Below, in pieces: positions 45,667 through 52,549 of a DNA stretch of 64,000 nucleotides; the stretch's first letter is position 1; each line of letters begins with the position of its first letter. The stretch is from NCBI RefSeq assembly GCF_001426245.1, contig NZ_LMCM01000009.1:124001-188000 (forward strand), read 5' to 3'. A model generated the notes under the pieces. It was not told the origin of the DNA, did no database searches, and was given only the letters and a program-made list of their open reading frames with translations. The translations under genes and the position numbers were made by a program. This stretch comes from Phycicoccus sp. Root101. GTDB taxonomy: Bacteria; Actinomycetota; Actinomycetes; Actinomycetales; Dermatophilaceae.

Positions 45667-47337
45667 CTAGCCCCGGCTGCCCACGGCGAGCGCGAGGGCC
45701 TGCGGGTAGTCGACTCCCCCGCCCTCGTCCAGCCGGGTCACGTCGTACACCCGGCCGGTCTGCACGTTCCACGCGAGGACCCAGGAACCGTCGTACCCGG
45801 TGGACCGGAACAGCACGGTCGAGGCGTCGGCCCACGCGAGGACCGTGCAGCACCCCTTGAACCGCCCGGTCCTGCCGTCAGGAGACTCCGGAGCGAGCAG
45901 CACGCGGCCCGAGTGCGCCTCGAAGTCGACGGCCAGCAGTCCCTGGTAGATCGGCCCGTTGCCGCGGACGATCACCGGCGACGTGACGTCCTGGTCGAAG
46001 TAGGCCCCGCTCGCCGACCACTGACCGGCAGAGACCGTCTCGCCCGCAAGGTCCGTGACCGGGACGCCCAGACCGGAGTTGATCGGGACGGGCACGTCAG
46101 CCGCGACAGCCGGCGGTGCGCCACCACCGCTGGCAGCCCCTTGCTGACCGAGGTCGAGGGTCCACGCCCGACCGGCGGAGCGAGCCACGACCTCGAGGCC
46201 ATCTCCCCACCCGGCCACCTCGAGGTCGGAGGCCGGCACGGCATACCGCTGGGTCCTGCCGGTCCGCAGGTCGAGCCGCACCACGGCACCGGGTTGGGCG
46301 AACACGACCCATCGCCCGTCGGCGCTGACCGCCTTGGGCCCCAGGGGAACTCCCTCGTTGCCGTCGGCGTCGCGCGTCGGCAGCAGGTCGAGCGAGTCGA
46401 CCACGACCTGGGTGCGGCCCTTGGGCACGAGCACCGCCCGGTAGTGGGCGCCGGCACGTCGCAGGTAGACCGCGACGACGTCGGTCGGCGGCACCTTCGA
46501 GGACGACAGCTTCACGGCGGGCCCGGTCGGGTCGATCTGCGAGGGCAGCCCCGCGTCGTAGTCGGGCAGCTGGTCCTCGTCCCCCTCCAGCGGCATCGAC
46601 GCGTACAGCGTGCCGTCCGAGAGCCGCTTCACCGGAGCGGTGACCGTCGTCGACGGTGCCGGAGAAGGCGTGCCCCCTCCGCGCTCGGCCCCCTGTGCCA
46701 CGCCGACCACCACTCCCACCGCCGCGAAGCTGACCACGGCGCCGAGCACCCGCTGACGACGTGTGCGCCGTCGGGTCAGGGCAAGGGCCCAGGCGCGGTC
46801 GGCCACGTCCACCTCGACCACCTGTTGAGCGGCCACGTCGAACAGGTCCACGAGGTCGCCACCACCGACCACCTGCTGCGCCACGCGTTCGGCCGCTGCC
46901 TGCGTGTCGGCCACGACGCGGGCTCGCGACTCGCCCATCACCTCGGCGACGTCCTTGTCGCTGCGCTCGTCGAAGTACCGCAGCACGAGCAGCGCCCGCT
47001 GCCGGGGCGAGAGGGCGTCAAGGGCACTGCGGACGTCCGGGGTCCTCGTGCCGTCCCCCTCGAACACGTCGCCCACCTCATCGGCCAGCGACCGTGTCTG
47101 CGGATCGCGCCGAGCACGCTTCAGGGCGGCGACGGCCCGGCGGTACACGTGCTGCCGCACCACGGTGTCCGGGTACTCCCGCACCGCTCCCCAGCGTGCA
47201 GCGACGTCGGCCAGGCCCTCCTCGAGGACCTCCACCGCCTGCCGCGCGTCACCACAGACGAGGTAGGCCGCCCGCAGCAGCCGGTGCTGGCGCGCACGGA
47301 CGTAGCGGGCGAAGTCCGCATCCACCTCGTGCTGCAT
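45667..47337 (-). CDS. Sigma-70 family protein fused to a membrane-anchored extracytoplasmic domain
   Basis: The 556-residue chain begins like a SigE/SigM-family ECF sigma factor: region 2 at about residues 10-76 (DFARYVRARQHRLLRAAYLVCGD) and region 4 at about 103-155 (ALSPRQRALLVLRYFDERSDKDVAEVMG). One hydrophobic helix follows (about 197-215), preceded by an Arg-rich stop. The remaining 340 residues are a Ser/Thr linker and a beta-propeller-like domain with repeated VSADGRWVVFAQ / VLAWADASTVLFRS strands. The fusion would tether a sigma-like domain to the inner face of the membrane. The region 4 helix is degenerate, so promoter recognition is uncertain. GGGAGG precedes the ATG. Confidence 0.78.
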   Translation of the reverse strand: MQHEVDADFARYVRARQHRLLRAAYLVCGDARQAVEVLEEGLADVAARWGAVREYPDTVVRQHVYRRAVAALKRARRDPQTRSLADEVGDVFEGDGTRTPDVRSALDALSPRQRALLVLRYFDERSDKDVAEVMGESRARVVADTQAAAERVAQQVVGGGDLVDLFDVAAQQVVEVDVADRAWALALTRRRTRRQRVLGAVVSFAAVGVVVGVAQGAERGGGTPSPAPSTTVTAPVKRLSDGTLYASMPLEGDEDQLPDYDAGLPSQIDPTGPAVKLSSSKVPPTDVVAVYLRRAGAHYRAVLVPKGRTQVVVDSLDLLPTRDADGNEGVPLGPKAVSADGRWVVFAQPGAVVRLDLRTGRTQRYAVPASDLEVAGWGDGLEVVARSAGRAWTLDLGQQGAASGGGAPPAVAADVPVPINSGLGVPVTDLAGETVSAGQWSASGAYFDQDVTSPVIVRGNGPIYQGLLAVDFEAHSGRVLLAPESPDGRTGRFKGCCTVLAWADASTVLFRSTGYDGSWVLAWNVQTGRVYDVTRLDEGGGVDYPQALALAVGSRG

Positions 47338-47397
47338 GCCACCTCCCTCGCTGGCCCCGGCGCGCCGTACGCGACGCTCTGCCCATCAAACAGCACT

Positions 47398-47421
47398 CTG
47401 CCCACGACGCATCGTGGGCAG
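47398..47421 (-). terminator. Hairpin downstream of glyS
   Basis: CTGCCCACGA-CGCA-TCGTGGGCAG, a perfect 10-bp stem with a 4-nt loop, 50 bp past the glyS stop. Confidence 0.7.
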
Positions 47422-47471
47422 GGTGAAGTGGGACAGGCAGGGCGGACGAGCCGGAGGTCGCCAGCCGAGCG

Positions 47472-48863
<1,392 letters not shown>

Positions 48864-49278: not shown

Positions 49279-49308
49279 TTGACAATGGTTCTCATTTCAG
49301 ATGAGAAT
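49279..49308 (+). promoter_or_regulatory. Promoter of the zinc uptake operon
   Basis: A perfect -35 TTGACA (49279-49284) and a -10-like GAGAAT (49303-49308) are 18 bp apart. The -10 element ends 7 nt before the ATG at 49316, so the mRNA should be leaderless. Both elements lie inside the two Zur boxes. Confidence 0.65.
49280..49294 (+). promoter_or_regulatory. Zur box 1 of the znu operon
   Basis: TGACAATGGTTCTCA matches 12 of 15 positions of the actinobacterial Zur site (TGAAAATGATTTTCA). It covers the -35 element. Confidence 0.78.
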
Positions 49309-49316
49309 GGTTGTCA
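49302..49316 (+). promoter_or_regulatory. Zur box 2 of the znu operon
   Basis: TGAGAATGGTTGTCA matches 12 of 15 positions of the same consensus, 22 bp downstream of box 1 and so about two helical turns away. It covers the -10 element and the first base of the start codon. Confidence 0.78.
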
Positions 49317-50263
49317 TGAAGTCCCGACACCTCGGTTGGCCCGCCGCCGCAATCGCCATCGCCATGGTCTCCGCCTGCGGGGCGACCGGGGGGTCGGGCT
49401 CCACGGACGGCACGGTGACCGTCGCAGCCGCCTTCTACCCCCTGGAGTACGCCGTCTCGCAGATCGGCGGCGACCACGTCGACGTCCAGGCGCTGACCAA
49501 GCCGGGGGCCGAGCCACACGACCTCGAGCTCAACCCCAAGCAGGTCGGTGAGGTCGCCCAGGCCGACCTCGTCGTCTACGAGAAGGGCTTCCAGCCCGCC
49601 GTCGACGACGCGGTGAAGAGCGAGGCGAAGGGCACCGGCTTCGACGTCTCCCCCGCCGCTCGGCTCGACCTCGCTGCTAACGAGGAGGGTCACGACCACG
49701 CCGGCGAGACGGAGCAGCAGCACTCCGACCACGCCACCGGCGCGAAGGACCCACACTTCTGGCTCGACCCGATGCGCTACGCCGACGTCGGCGACGCGAT
49801 CGCTGCCGAGCTGGGCCGACGGGACCCGGCCAACGCCGCGGCATACACGGCGAACGCGACGGCGTTCCGCGCGCAGCTGACCACGCTCGACGGGGAGTTC
49901 CGCACCGGGCTGCGGTCCTGCAGGATCAAGGACCTGGTCACCTCGCACGCCGCGTTCGGCTACCTCTCGAAGGCGTACGGGCTCACCCAGGAGAGCATCA
50001 CCGGCCTGACGCCTGACAGCGAGCCGAGCCCCGCCGCCCTCGCCGACCTCACCCAGCACATCCGCGAGAGCGGTGCGACGACCGTGTATGCCGAGACGCT
50101 CGTGAGCGAGGACGTGGCCAAGACCCTCGCCCGCGAGACCGGTGCCACACTGGCCGTGCTCGATCCCATCGAGGGCATCACCACGAAGTCGGCGGCCCAG
50201 GACTACCCCGGCGTCATGCGCGCCAACCTGGCCACCCTCAAGGCAGGACAGGAGTGTTCGTGA
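49316..50263 (+). CDS. znuA: Zinc ABC importer, lipoprotein binding protein
   Basis: The 315-residue cluster A-I binding protein has a lipobox VSAC (Cys21) and the metal-binding fold TVAAAFYPLEYAVSQIGGD, with His ligands in GAEPHDLELN, DPHFWLDP and SHAAFGYL. A short His-rich loop (EEGHDHAGETEQQHSDHA, about residues 125-142) is the flexible zinc-collecting loop of ZnuA. Earlier in-frame ATGs exist (49301, 49307) but lie inside Zur box 2; the ATG at 49316 fits the leaderless promoter. It overlaps znuC by GTGA. Confidence 0.93.
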   Translation: MKSRHLGWPAAAIAIAMVSACGATGGSGSTDGTVTVAAAFYPLEYAVSQIGGDHVDVQALTKPGAEPHDLELNPKQVGEVAQADLVVYEKGFQPAVDDAVKSEAKGTGFDVSPAARLDLAANEEGHDHAGETEQQHSDHATGAKDPHFWLDPMRYADVGDAIAAELGRRDPANAAAYTANATAFRAQLTTLDGEFRTGLRSCRIKDLVTSHAAFGYLSKAYGLTQESITGLTPDSEPSPAALADLTQHIRESGATTVYAETLVSEDVAKTLARETGATLAVLDPIEGITTKSAAQDYPGVMRANLATLKAGQECS

Positions 50264-51084
50264 CCGACGACCCGATCATCGAGCTCCGGCGCGCCTCGTT
50301 CGGCTACGCCGACCAGACCATCGTCCAGGCCGCCGACCTCACGGTGCACGCCGGTGAGGTGGTGGCCGTGCTCGGCCCGAACGGTTCGGGCAAGTCCACG
50401 CTCGTCCGCGGCCTGCTCGGGCTCAACGACCAGCTCGGCGGCGAGGTGCGCCTCTTCGGCCAGCCGCGGGACTCGTTCCACGACCACGCACGCCTCGGGT
50501 ACGTCCCGCAACGCCACACGCTGTCGGCGTCCGTGCGCGCCACCGTCGAGGAGATCGTCGCGGTCGGCCGCCTGTCGCACCACCGGTGGTGGCGACCGGT
50601 CGTGCGGAGCGCGCAGGACATCGCCATCCTCGACAAGGCGCTCGACGTCGTCGGGCTGTCCGACCGCGCGACCGCCGACGTCTCGACTCTCTCCGGCGGG
50701 CAGCAGCGGCGGGTGCTCATCGCGCGCGCCCTGGCGTCCGACCCCGACGTGCTCCTCATGGACGAGCCGACCGCCGGCGTCGACGCCGCGAACCAGCACG
50801 TCCTGTCGACGGTGCTGGCCCGGCTTGCGGACCGCGGCACGACGATGGTCATCGTCACCCACGAGCTCGCCGCCCTGGCCGGCATCGTGACCCGCATCGT
50901 CCTGGTGCAGGGCGGTCGCATCGCCTTCGACGGGACGCCGGAGCAGTTCGCCGCCCACGGAAGCGGTTTCGCGCACGACCACGACCACCATCACCACGAC
51001 GACGAGGTCGACCCGTCGGCGCCGCACCTCCCCGGGGCACCGTCCGCCGGACCCCTCGACCCCCGGCAAGGAGCGCGTCGATGA
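50260..51084 (+). CDS. znuC: Zinc ABC importer, ATPase
   Basis: The 274-residue ATPase has Walker A GPNGSGKST, signature LSGGQQRR, Walker B DVLLMDEPTAGVD and switch His VTHELAAL. A cytoplasmic C-terminal tail carries a His/Asp cluster (FAHDHDHHHHDDEVD), likely a zinc-binding appendix. The GTG at 50260 has an AGGAG site 4 nt upstream and overlaps the znuA stop; an in-frame GTG at 50254 is less likely. It overlaps znuB by ATGA. Confidence 0.93.
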   Translation: MTDDPIIELRRASFGYADQTIVQAADLTVHAGEVVAVLGPNGSGKSTLVRGLLGLNDQLGGEVRLFGQPRDSFHDHARLGYVPQRHTLSASVRATVEEIVAVGRLSHHRWWRPVVRSAQDIAILDKALDVVGLSDRATADVSTLSGGQQRRVLIARALASDPDVLLMDEPTAGVDAANQHVLSTVLARLADRGTTMVIVTHELAALAGIVTRIVLVQGGRIAFDGTPEQFAAHGSGFAHDHDHHHHDDEVDPSAPHLPGAPSAGPLDPRQGARR

Positions 51085-52121
51085 GCGAGATCCTCGCCCT
51101 GGACTTCATGCGGCAGGCCCTGCTGGCCGCCCTCTTGGTCGGCATCGCCGCCCCCCTCGTCGGGGTCTTCCTCGTGCAGCGGCGGCTGTCCCTCATCGGT
51201 GACGGCATGGGGCACGTCGCCCTTGCCGGTGTCGCCGTCGGCCTGCTCACCGGCCAGGCCCCCGTCCTCACCGCCCTGCTCTTCGCCGTCGCCGCGGCCA
51301 TCGCGATCGAGGTGATCCGGGGCCGAGGACGCACGAGCGGCGACATCGCGCTGGCCGTGATGTTCTACGGAGGCATCGCCGCCGGCGTCGTGATCATCGC
51401 GAAGTCGCCCAGCAGCAGCCCCGCCAACCTCACGGCATACCTCTTCGGGGCGATCACCACGGCGGACCAGAACGACCTCTGGGTGTTCGCCGGGCTCGCC
51501 GCGGTCGTCCTGTTCACCACGTGGCTGCTGCGGCCCTGGCTGTTCGCGGTCGCCAACGACGAGGAGTACGCCCGGGCCAGCGGCCTGCCCGTCACGGCCC
51601 TCAACATCGCCCTCGCCATCCTCACCGCGGTCACCGTCGTGGTGTCGATGCGGGTCGTCGGGCTGCTGCTCATCAGCGCCCTGATGATCATCCCCAACGC
51701 CACGGCCCAGCTGCTCGGACGCAGCTTCCGCGCCTCGGTCCGCTGGGCGGTCCTGGTCGGCGTGCTCTCCAGCGTCGGGGGTGTCATCGCCTCGTACTAC
51801 GCGGAGACCCCGTCAGGCGGGACGATCGTGCTGCTCGCGATCGGCGCGTTCGTCGTGGTGGCCACGGTCAGCGCGCTCGGCGCCAGGGCCCGTGCCGCGC
51901 GGCACCGGTTGGCCGAACGCCACGACCACGAGCACGGTCCGGGCTGCGGACACGCGGCGGTGGCTCACGACGACCACGTCGACTACGTCCATGACGGGCA
52001 CCGTCACGCGCCGCACGAGGGCCACTACGACGAGCACGCCCCCGACGCACACGGCCACCACGACGGCCACGACGGCCGGGGCCACGGCGACCTCGCACCG
52101 AAGGAGACGGCACCGCGATGA
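51081..52121 (+). CDS. znuB: Zinc ABC importer, permease with His-rich tail
   Basis: The 346-residue permease of the ZnuB/MntB family has about eight helices in its first 270 residues (AAPLVGVFLVQRRLSLIGDGMGHVALAG is typical; quoted in part: QRRLSLIGDGMGHVAL). The last 70 residues are hydrophilic and extremely His-rich (HDHEHGPGCGHAAVAHDDH, then HGHHDGHDGRGHG), far beyond the usual permease length. Such a tail could store or sense zinc at the cytoplasmic exit. It overlaps zur by ATGA. Confidence 0.93.
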   Translation: MSEILALDFMRQALLAALLVGIAAPLVGVFLVQRRLSLIGDGMGHVALAGVAVGLLTGQAPVLTALLFAVAAAIAIEVIRGRGRTSGDIALAVMFYGGIAAGVVIIAKSPSSSPANLTAYLFGAITTADQNDLWVFAGLAAVVLFTTWLLRPWLFAVANDEEYARASGLPVTALNIALAILTAVTVVVSMRVVGLLLISALMIIPNATAQLLGRSFRASVRWAVLVGVLSSVGGVIASYYAETPSGGTIVLLAIGAFVVVATVSALGARARAARHRLAERHDHEHGPGCGHAAVAHDDHVDYVHDGHRHAPHEGHYDEHAPDAHGHHDGHDGRGHGDLAPKETAPR

Positions 52122-52549
52122 CCGGAGTCCAGGAACGCCCGACCGCACTCACCGAACCCGGCGAAGGCGCCCGTCGCCCCACCCGCCAGCGCGCGGCCGT
52201 GGCCGCGGTGCTCGCCGACACCGGCGAGTTCCGGTCGGCCCAGGAGCTGCACGCGCTGCTGCGCGAGGCCGGCGACAAGGTCGGGCTCGCCACGGTCTAC
52301 CGGAACCTCCAGGCCATGGCCGCCGACGGCGAGATCGACATGCTGCGCACCGACGAGGGCGAGGCCGTCTACCGCGCCTGCTCGACCGGGCACCACCACC
52401 ACCTCGTGTGCCGGGTGTGCGGACGCACGGTCGAGGTCGAGGGCCCGACGGTGGAGGCATGGGCGACGAAGGTCAGCTCCCAGCACGGCTTCACCGACGT
52501 CCACCACACGCTGGAGATCTTCGGCACCTGCGCCGACTGCTCGCGCTGA
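52118..52549 (+). CDS. zur: Zinc uptake repressor, Fur family
   Basis: The 143-residue Fur-family regulator has a winged-helix domain (TRQRAAVAAVLADTGEFRSAQELH.. VGLATVYRNLQAM, quoted in parts) and a dimerisation domain with the regulatory HHHHLVC and two CxxC pairs (CRVC, CADC) that hold structural zinc. As the last gene of the znu operon it should repress its own operon through the two Zur boxes when zinc is plentiful. Its ATG overlaps the znuB stop. Confidence 0.93.
   Translation: MTGVQERPTALTEPGEGARRPTRQRAAVAAVLADTGEFRSAQELHALLREAGDKVGLATVYRNLQAMAADGEIDMLRTDEGEAVYRACSTGHHHHLVCRVCGRTVEVEGPTVEAWATKVSSQHGFTDVHHTLEIFGTCADCSR

Follow-up and report, generated by a model that had tools for sequence, protein, structure and literature searches.

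In the window, the 64,000-nucleotide stretch of the Phycicoccus sp. Root101 contig NZ_LMCM01000009.1 analysed here, one gene probably encodes a dead sigma factor fused to the membrane protein that was once its partner. This reading draws on sequence comparison across a bacterial family, in which fusion, loss of sigma motifs, loss of a promoter, recurrence and dN/dS ratios below 1 are all directly visible. The initial annotation described sigma regions, a membrane anchor and a propeller-like outer domain in one chain; its coordinates and architecture were correct, and the strand, which it left unstated, is minus (Table 1). We call a gene fused when the sigma and membrane/propeller parts form one chain and split when they are two genes, both states being read from open frames in draft genomes.

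Table 1. Positions, in the window, of the fused gene, its parts and the neighbouring glyS.
Feature	Position	Strand	Basis or remark
Fused gene	45667..47337	-	556 aa, one open frame; ATG at 47337, TAG at 45667-45669
Residues 1-160, degenerate SigE-family sigma-like part (regions 2 and 4)	46858..47337	-	TIGR02983, Pfam region 4, SigW superposition
Residues 161-195, short helical stretch with basic patch, presumed anti-sigma element	46753..46857	-	Model helices; motif shared with split relatives
Residues 197-216, single membrane helix	46690..46749	-	Kyte-Doolittle, model
Residues 235-556, beta-propeller, presumed extracytoplasmic	45670..46635	-	AF2 model; topology inferred
134-bp space, glyS stop to fused gene	47338..47471	-	No CAACC-N16/17-C[GA]TT promoter; hairpin inside
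glyS (glycine--tRNA ligase)	47472..48857	-	NF003211 E 2e-203; start picked by eye

Pfam recognised region 4 of the protein (E 2e-8) but gave no match to region 2 at E up to 1. Against the NCBIfam model SigE-fam_strep (TIGR02983) the protein scored 80 bits and did not reach the curated cut-off of 141.55; the split relative G006 scored 169.5, the degenerate split G001 128.7 and the fused G139b 96.9 bits. Kyte-Doolittle hydropathy was 2.21 over the 19 residues 197-215 and never rose above 1.6 in the rest of the chain. Region 4 was the sole Pfam match at E up to 1, with no zinc-finger or carbohydrate-binding domain; across 33 fused rows, Pfam found six families, zinc-finger and carbohydrate-binding ones absent, and no WD40 match at 0.001. 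A sequence search of solved structures returned nine weak matches, mostly to unrelated molecules, and was set aside. Further along the window, at 49301-52546, lie genes of a zinc/manganese-type ABC transporter followed by a Fur-family regulator, with His-rich tails on the ATPase and permease frames.

The whole chain was modelled with AlphaFold from an alignment of 67 rows (mean pLDDT 86.3, pTM 0.64). The outer domain modelled alone (AF2) reached pLDDT 87.8 and pTM 0.88 and matched 2w8b_B with Z 14.0 and rmsd 3.8 over 230 aligned residues, which bears out the annotated propeller-like domain and makes residues 235-556 a predicted member of the TolB/WD40 class; the assignment concerns the fold and does not imply TolB function. 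Its placement outside the cell, also part of the annotation, is what the topology would give. Residues 3-159 of the model fitted, as a single unit, the SigW chain of the SigW/RsiW complex (5wuq_A; Z 16.6, rmsd 3.1, 142 aligned), and the sigma-like part matched RpoE/NepR (5uxx) with Z 14.9. The sigma fold is clear in the model; the closed, anti-sigma-bound arrangement is suggestive, since in helical bundles a Z value as high as about 13 is not necessarily meaningful. Helices were modelled at residues 162-170 and 179-205, with low confidence from residue 203 on.

The stretch before the membrane helix carries the consensus DLxxLLERASxxVxEVDFAxxAWxxA, a motif that also begins the separate membrane gene in split relatives. 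We took 30 loci with this module, eight of them in the present gene family. Among the other 22, the module followed a SigE-family sigma match in 18, which supports an anti-sigma role for the stretch, and no sigma match was seen at four; by this argument the short helix would act as an anti-sigma element and the membrane protein would be the sigma factor's anti-sigma partner. None of the 18 sigma-preceded loci elsewhere in the order was fused, and three (in G155, G025 and G134) belong to the same bacterial family as the window genome. The promoter described below (CAACC-N16/17-C[GA]TT) is not general for such pairs, as only 3 of the 18 carry it. The window genome itself, G000, has more membrane-module matches close behind SigE-family sigma matches, at G000:C5:533180-533894 and G000:C1:720755-721457, and a CAACCTT...CGTT site lies about 0.1 kb before the sigma match of the former.

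Both states of the gene occur at one locus within the genus, which contains Pedococcus and was sampled with 11 genomes including G000; the relatives include Phycicoccus sp. Soil748 (G010), Pedococcus sp. 5OH_020 (G009), P. bigeumensis (G006), Phycicoccus sp. Soil802 (G008) and Knoellia koreensis (G002). The propeller is present in all 11, as a single match in 10 and as two pieces of one broken gene in G005, and the genus-wide match search found no second copy of the propeller family in the window genome. By open frames, five genomes are fused (G000, G005, G007, G009 and G010) and six are split (G001, G002, G003, G004, G006 and G008). Each of the six split genomes has a 4-base overlap between the end of the sigma gene and the beginning of the membrane gene, and glyS adjoins the locus in the same orientation in 10 of 10 genus relatives. 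The distance from the glyS stop to the fused gene is 25 bp in G007, 28 bp in G009, 33 bp in G005, 134 bp in G000 and 188 bp in G010. A hairpin, CTGCCCACGA...TCGTGGGCAG, lies in this space in G000 (window 47338-47471), and similar hairpins are found at the same place in G001 and G010. The fused orthologues of G007 and G010 are 67% and 64% identical to the window protein, and in the fused orthologue of G005 (L106 6504-8187) a change of frame interrupts the propeller. The fused gene is more than a chance frame, given the orthologous one-chain genes in G007, G010 and G009, and the annotated physical joining of an altered sigma part to a membrane protein is supported.

Across the bacterial family, matches at E 1e-8 were found in 66 of 186 genomes; in ten of these (g68) the match covered the N-terminal module alone. 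At E 1e-12, with few candidates scored per genome, no spread beyond the family was seen: 14 of 297 genomes of the order matched, all within the family. From 40 fetched regions, the genus loci and four loci of an earlier sigma search, we built a tree of the membrane/propeller part with 54 rows, 36 fused and 18 split. Left out were three loci that were interrupted or truncated by the end of a contig (G094, G187, G169), an equally scoring match on another contig of G188, the ten g68 genomes, three loci that had no sigma call (the second piece of G071, G117 and G132), a short G133 match and the pieces of G005, save its C-terminal one, which is in the tree. G032 and G190 had no sigma match at the state-calling step and were counted as fused solely for the 196 and 203 residues of open frame before their membrane part; they stand outside the promoter count (34 fused, that is 33 plus G005) and the Pfam alignment (33 fused). 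A sigma match was present in 33 one-chain rows, which spanned eight genera.

The fused/split label requires at least eight changes on the propeller tree, a number forced by its starred branches alone; after removal of seven hand-picked genomes (six of 73-93% completeness, plus G005), five changes were needed over 46 rows. The count carries no direction. A passage from two genes to one is suggested by the intact motifs of split sigma factors together with a -10-like relic before the fused G005 gene. Two loci hold additional copies. In G027 (L062 1346-4984) an intact split sigma/propeller pair with a promoter of its own comes immediately after a fused copy on the same strand, possibly placing a pseudo-sigma beside a live sigma. 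In G071 (L069) a second, interrupted propeller copy lies behind the split pair.

The fused sigma parts have lost residues by which a sigma factor works. Against a reference profile of 13 SigE-family sigmas from outside this gene family, none of them beside a propeller match, the 18 split sigmas scored 137-193 bits and the 35 fused ones 10-108 bits. Three motif groups were compared, in columns named from a split row: 2.2, which contacts core RNA polymerase (RNAP), 2.4, which contacts the -10 element, and 4.2, which contacts the -35 element. The full set survived in 17 of 18 split rows and in none of the 35 fused rows, of which 13 retained one group and none two. The 13 outside sigmas served as a yardstick: eight kept all three groups and all 13 at least two. 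The window row retains one of the three, the 2.2 D/E..Q/E pair. The degeneration that the annotation had noted in region 4 is confirmed by this comparison and extends to region 2. Pfam matches were lost in the same direction, with region 2 found in 17/18 split versus 4/33 fused rows and region 4 (Sigma70_r4_2) in 18/18 versus 22/33. Residues of the fold core persist in fused rows (R 34/35, W 33/35, R 35/35). Degeneration tracked fusion in 7 of 7 independent pairs, with none opposite (sign test p 0.016), by a 130-bit line drawn after the scores were seen; G001 counted as non-degenerate in this test because its 137 bits exceed that line. Though its two genes are separate, G001 retains none of the three motif groups and lacks the promoter. 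A sigma factor degenerate while still a separate gene shows that decay does not need fusion and may come first. We considered membership in the PhyR family and rejected it: the Pfam PhyR_sigma-like match is not discriminating, being commoner in split (8/18) than in fused rows (2/33). In vivo, the fused sigma parts would be expected to have lost sigma activity.

The promoter of the operon shows a parallel pattern. In G003, G004, G006 and G008 the split sigma gene is preceded by CAACCTTT-N13-GCGTTACT, with a weaker form in G002. The pattern CAACC-N16/17-C[GA]TT occurred within 300 bp upstream of the sigma match in 17 of 18 split rows, 35-99 bp away, and in 1 of 34 fused rows (control windows, 223/20000); the CGTT-only form was found in 15/18 and 1/34 (control, 188/20000). 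These scans begin at the sigma match, so a promoter before a longer fused N-terminus would escape them. No site was found within 300 bp upstream of the window gene. The exceptions were G001, a split row that lacks the promoter, and G139b, a fused row that has it. G139b, found in a 73%-complete MAG, also keeps one motif group and forms with the split G017b the closest fused/split sister pair on the tree; a young fusion may thus keep some sigma activity. The relic before the fused G005 gene has no -35. Promoter loss tracked fusion in six or seven of eight independent pairs, with none opposite.

Genome-wide, the strict pattern was found at a single site, in front of the operon, in five of the split genus genomes and at no site in the other six. 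No site in the 11 genomes had one or two mismatches to the form of G003, G004, G006 and G008. With up to three mismatches there were 38 sites, against 66 for a reversed-pattern control, and the only sites with fewer than three mismatches were the operon sites of those four genomes. A looser pattern gave 10 sites, five at the operon and five elsewhere, against seven control sites; two of the five non-operon sites lie about 0.1 kb before SigE-family sigma matches. On these counts we dropped a wider regulon, as judged by a single consensus that weaker targets would escape. We infer from these patterns that the split sigma is active and reads CAACC-N16/17-C[GA]TT.

Selection was compared in 13 pairs: eight fused (overlapping, some sharing a member), four split and one mixed (G017b/G139b; sigma dN 0.159, propeller dN 0.180), the last kept out of the ranges. 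In the fused pairs, NG86 dN/dS was 0.25-0.66 for the sigma part and 0.19-0.33 for the propeller part, absolute values that are rough since dS was high in many pairs and YN00 was unusable in several. The sigma value was the higher in six pairs, equal in one and slightly lower in one. The sigma dN was 1.0 to 2.9 times the propeller dN, higher in seven of the eight pairs and the same in one. In the split pairs the sigma/propeller dN ratio, computed by hand, was 1.2, 0.57, 0.17 and 0.04, the last with the interrupted G071 propeller. The sigma half thus tends to evolve more slowly than its partner in the split state and faster in the fused state, while still under constraint. What constraint is left may serve folding and stability of the membrane protein, or a new binding role.

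We propose that the ancestor would have been a two-gene operon, with 4 bases shared between the gene of a SigE-family ECF sigma factor and that of a membrane protein; the latter would have had one membrane helix, flanked by a short anti-sigma-like stretch in the cytoplasm and a propeller outside it. Such a split pair would work as a sensor complete in itself: the propeller protein would restrain the sigma factor, and the propeller presumably does the sensing. The sigma factor would read CAACC-N16/17-CGTT before its own operon and, by consensus, nothing else; its main job, with no other target by this consensus, would be to switch on its own operon upon a propeller signal. Once the locus came under other transcription, sigma activity would no longer be needed; the promoter could decay along with the motifs that bind RNAP and DNA, and the overlapping genes could merge, while selection retained the membrane propeller protein. 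The propeller would then be the function that was kept. What remains of the sigma domain would keep its fold and probably enclose the chain's own short helix, the two locked together as sigma and anti-sigma. No single order need hold for the merger, the decay and the loss of the promoter: G001 exemplifies decay and promoter loss without fusion, G139b apparently fusion before promoter loss. The dN/dS below 1 in fused sigma parts hints at a function, which the dead-sigma reading leaves vague.

That constraint is where another explanation has its footing. It supposes that the fused pseudo-sigma works as a sigma mimic, binding a hypothetical partner, a free anti-sigma or RNAP, and switching partners like PhyR. 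Sigma-part dN/dS below 1 in eight fused pairs, the retained fold-core residues, a model in the anti-sigma-bound arrangement and the fused copy directly before an intact split pair in G027 all fit it, and PhyR, with its degenerate RNAP and promoter regions, offers a precedent in the account of PMC8103513. A docking surface would be strongly conserved, however, and the fused sigma dN exceeds the dN of its own propeller in 7 of 8 pairs; the window genome, moreover, holds no second copy of the propeller family. We regard the mimic as conceivable but unlikely, and any present role of the pseudo-sigma as conjectural.

It is distinctly improbable that the chains are active sigma factors tethered to the membrane and freed by regulated proteolysis, as known for IutY. 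The architecture resembles IutY and ECF52 as these are described in PMC8999054 and PMC5411451, and region 4 of the window protein passes the Pfam cut-off, but two or more motif groups survive in 0/35 fused chains and the promoter is missing in 33/34, while 17/18 split rows keep motifs and promoter. A freed fragment would thus be unlikely to act as a sigma factor, and the suggestion in the initial annotation that activity may need proteolytic release finds no support; its remark that the sigma part may have turned into something else was the better half of its interpretation. More improbable still is a gene heading for loss whose frame stays open merely through high G+C. The frame break inside the G005 propeller, the relaxed sigma parts and the long spurious frames that high G+C favours speak for decay, set against a constrained propeller (NG86 0.19-0.33 in eight fused pairs), open frames in all 11 g2 rows of the tree, every one of them fused, and a propeller in 11 of 11 genus genomes. 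A sequencing or assembly frameshift joining two genes, to which high-G+C drafts are prone and of which the frame break in G005 might be a reminder, has a negligible chance and is ruled out for the window gene by independent orthologues: the annotation itself had named a frameshift, or homologues all split, as grounds for doubt, and one-chain orthologues recur in G007 (67% identical), in G009 and in G010 (64%), whose NCBI record comes from separate sequencing; the 33 one-chain rows in which a sigma match was present span eight genera; and fused and split homologues both occur.

With the window gene read as a dead sigma factor joined to its partner, nature has in effect run an experiment at this locus on the purpose of ECF sigma factors. 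One family contains both two-gene and one-chain forms, one genus contains them at the same locus, and in independent lineages fusion coincides with the decay of the sigma motifs and the disappearance of the sigma promoter. Some ECF sigmas, this suggests, may serve little beyond their own operon, and the membrane partner, usually labelled a mere anti-sigma factor, may be the part that matters. For annotation there is a warning, in that a chain called a sigma factor may be none, and the split and fused relatives are ready pairs for learning what makes a transcription factor a relic or a new module. A bolder view, to which we give only a slim chance, is that a new type of receptor arose in 5 to 8 state changes within one family: an autoregulated ECF sigma fused to its membrane anti-sigma/propeller partner would have lost RNAP and DNA binding, and the sigma fold would have become a cytoplasmic signalling module, for instance a membrane-bound mimic that titrates anti-sigmas or RNAP.

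A fusion of sigma factor and membrane protein is, as such, of a known kind. Sigma factors with C-terminal membrane extensions, such as IutY and ECF52, are on record (PMC8999054, PMC5826349, PMC5411451, PMC10733313), and section 3.5 of PMC8999054 traces them back to a sigma factor merging with its anti-sigma partner. We found no report in the open-access literature of recurrent sigma/anti-sigma fusion tied to loss of sigma function. ECF groups are given here as in the review PMC8999054, one step removed from the large re-classification itself. IutY, the ECF243 sigma/anti-sigma fusion of Pseudomonas putida, likewise combines an ECF sigma, a membrane helix and an outer part in one chain, as described in PMC5411451, and the window protein shares with it the union of sigma and membrane partner; IutY, however, is there an active sigma freed by Prc and RseP, and the fused chains here lack sigma motifs and promoter. 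The outer part of these chains is, instead, a propeller. To our knowledge, no outer-membrane receptor such as IutY has is to be expected in an actinobacterium.

The actinobacterial groups ECF52, ECF48 and ECF53 (e.g. SCO4117 of Streptomyces coelicolor) also join a sigma factor to a C-terminal membrane helix and an outer domain, but by the descriptions in PMC8999054 and PMC5826349 they carry a zinc-finger and, in ECF52, a carbohydrate-binding outer domain, whereas the present chains have a short helix and a propeller; SCO4117, moreover, is reported as an activator in vivo (PMC5826349). ECF57 comes near in joining a sigma factor to propeller-type repeats through a WD40-like C-terminal extension; its example is from Singulisphaera, with regulation by protein interaction suggested, and the comparison is with its description in PMC8999054. 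Class II anti-sigma factors such as CnrY, in the summary of PMC7406223 (section 10), bind sigma4 and sigma2 with two short helices, and the pre-membrane stretch may be likened to them in size and layout. The sigma-like domain of PhyR, as presented in PMC8103513, shares with the fused chains a sigma fold whose RNAP and promoter contacts have degenerated; there it is part of a response regulator, and here of a membrane chain.
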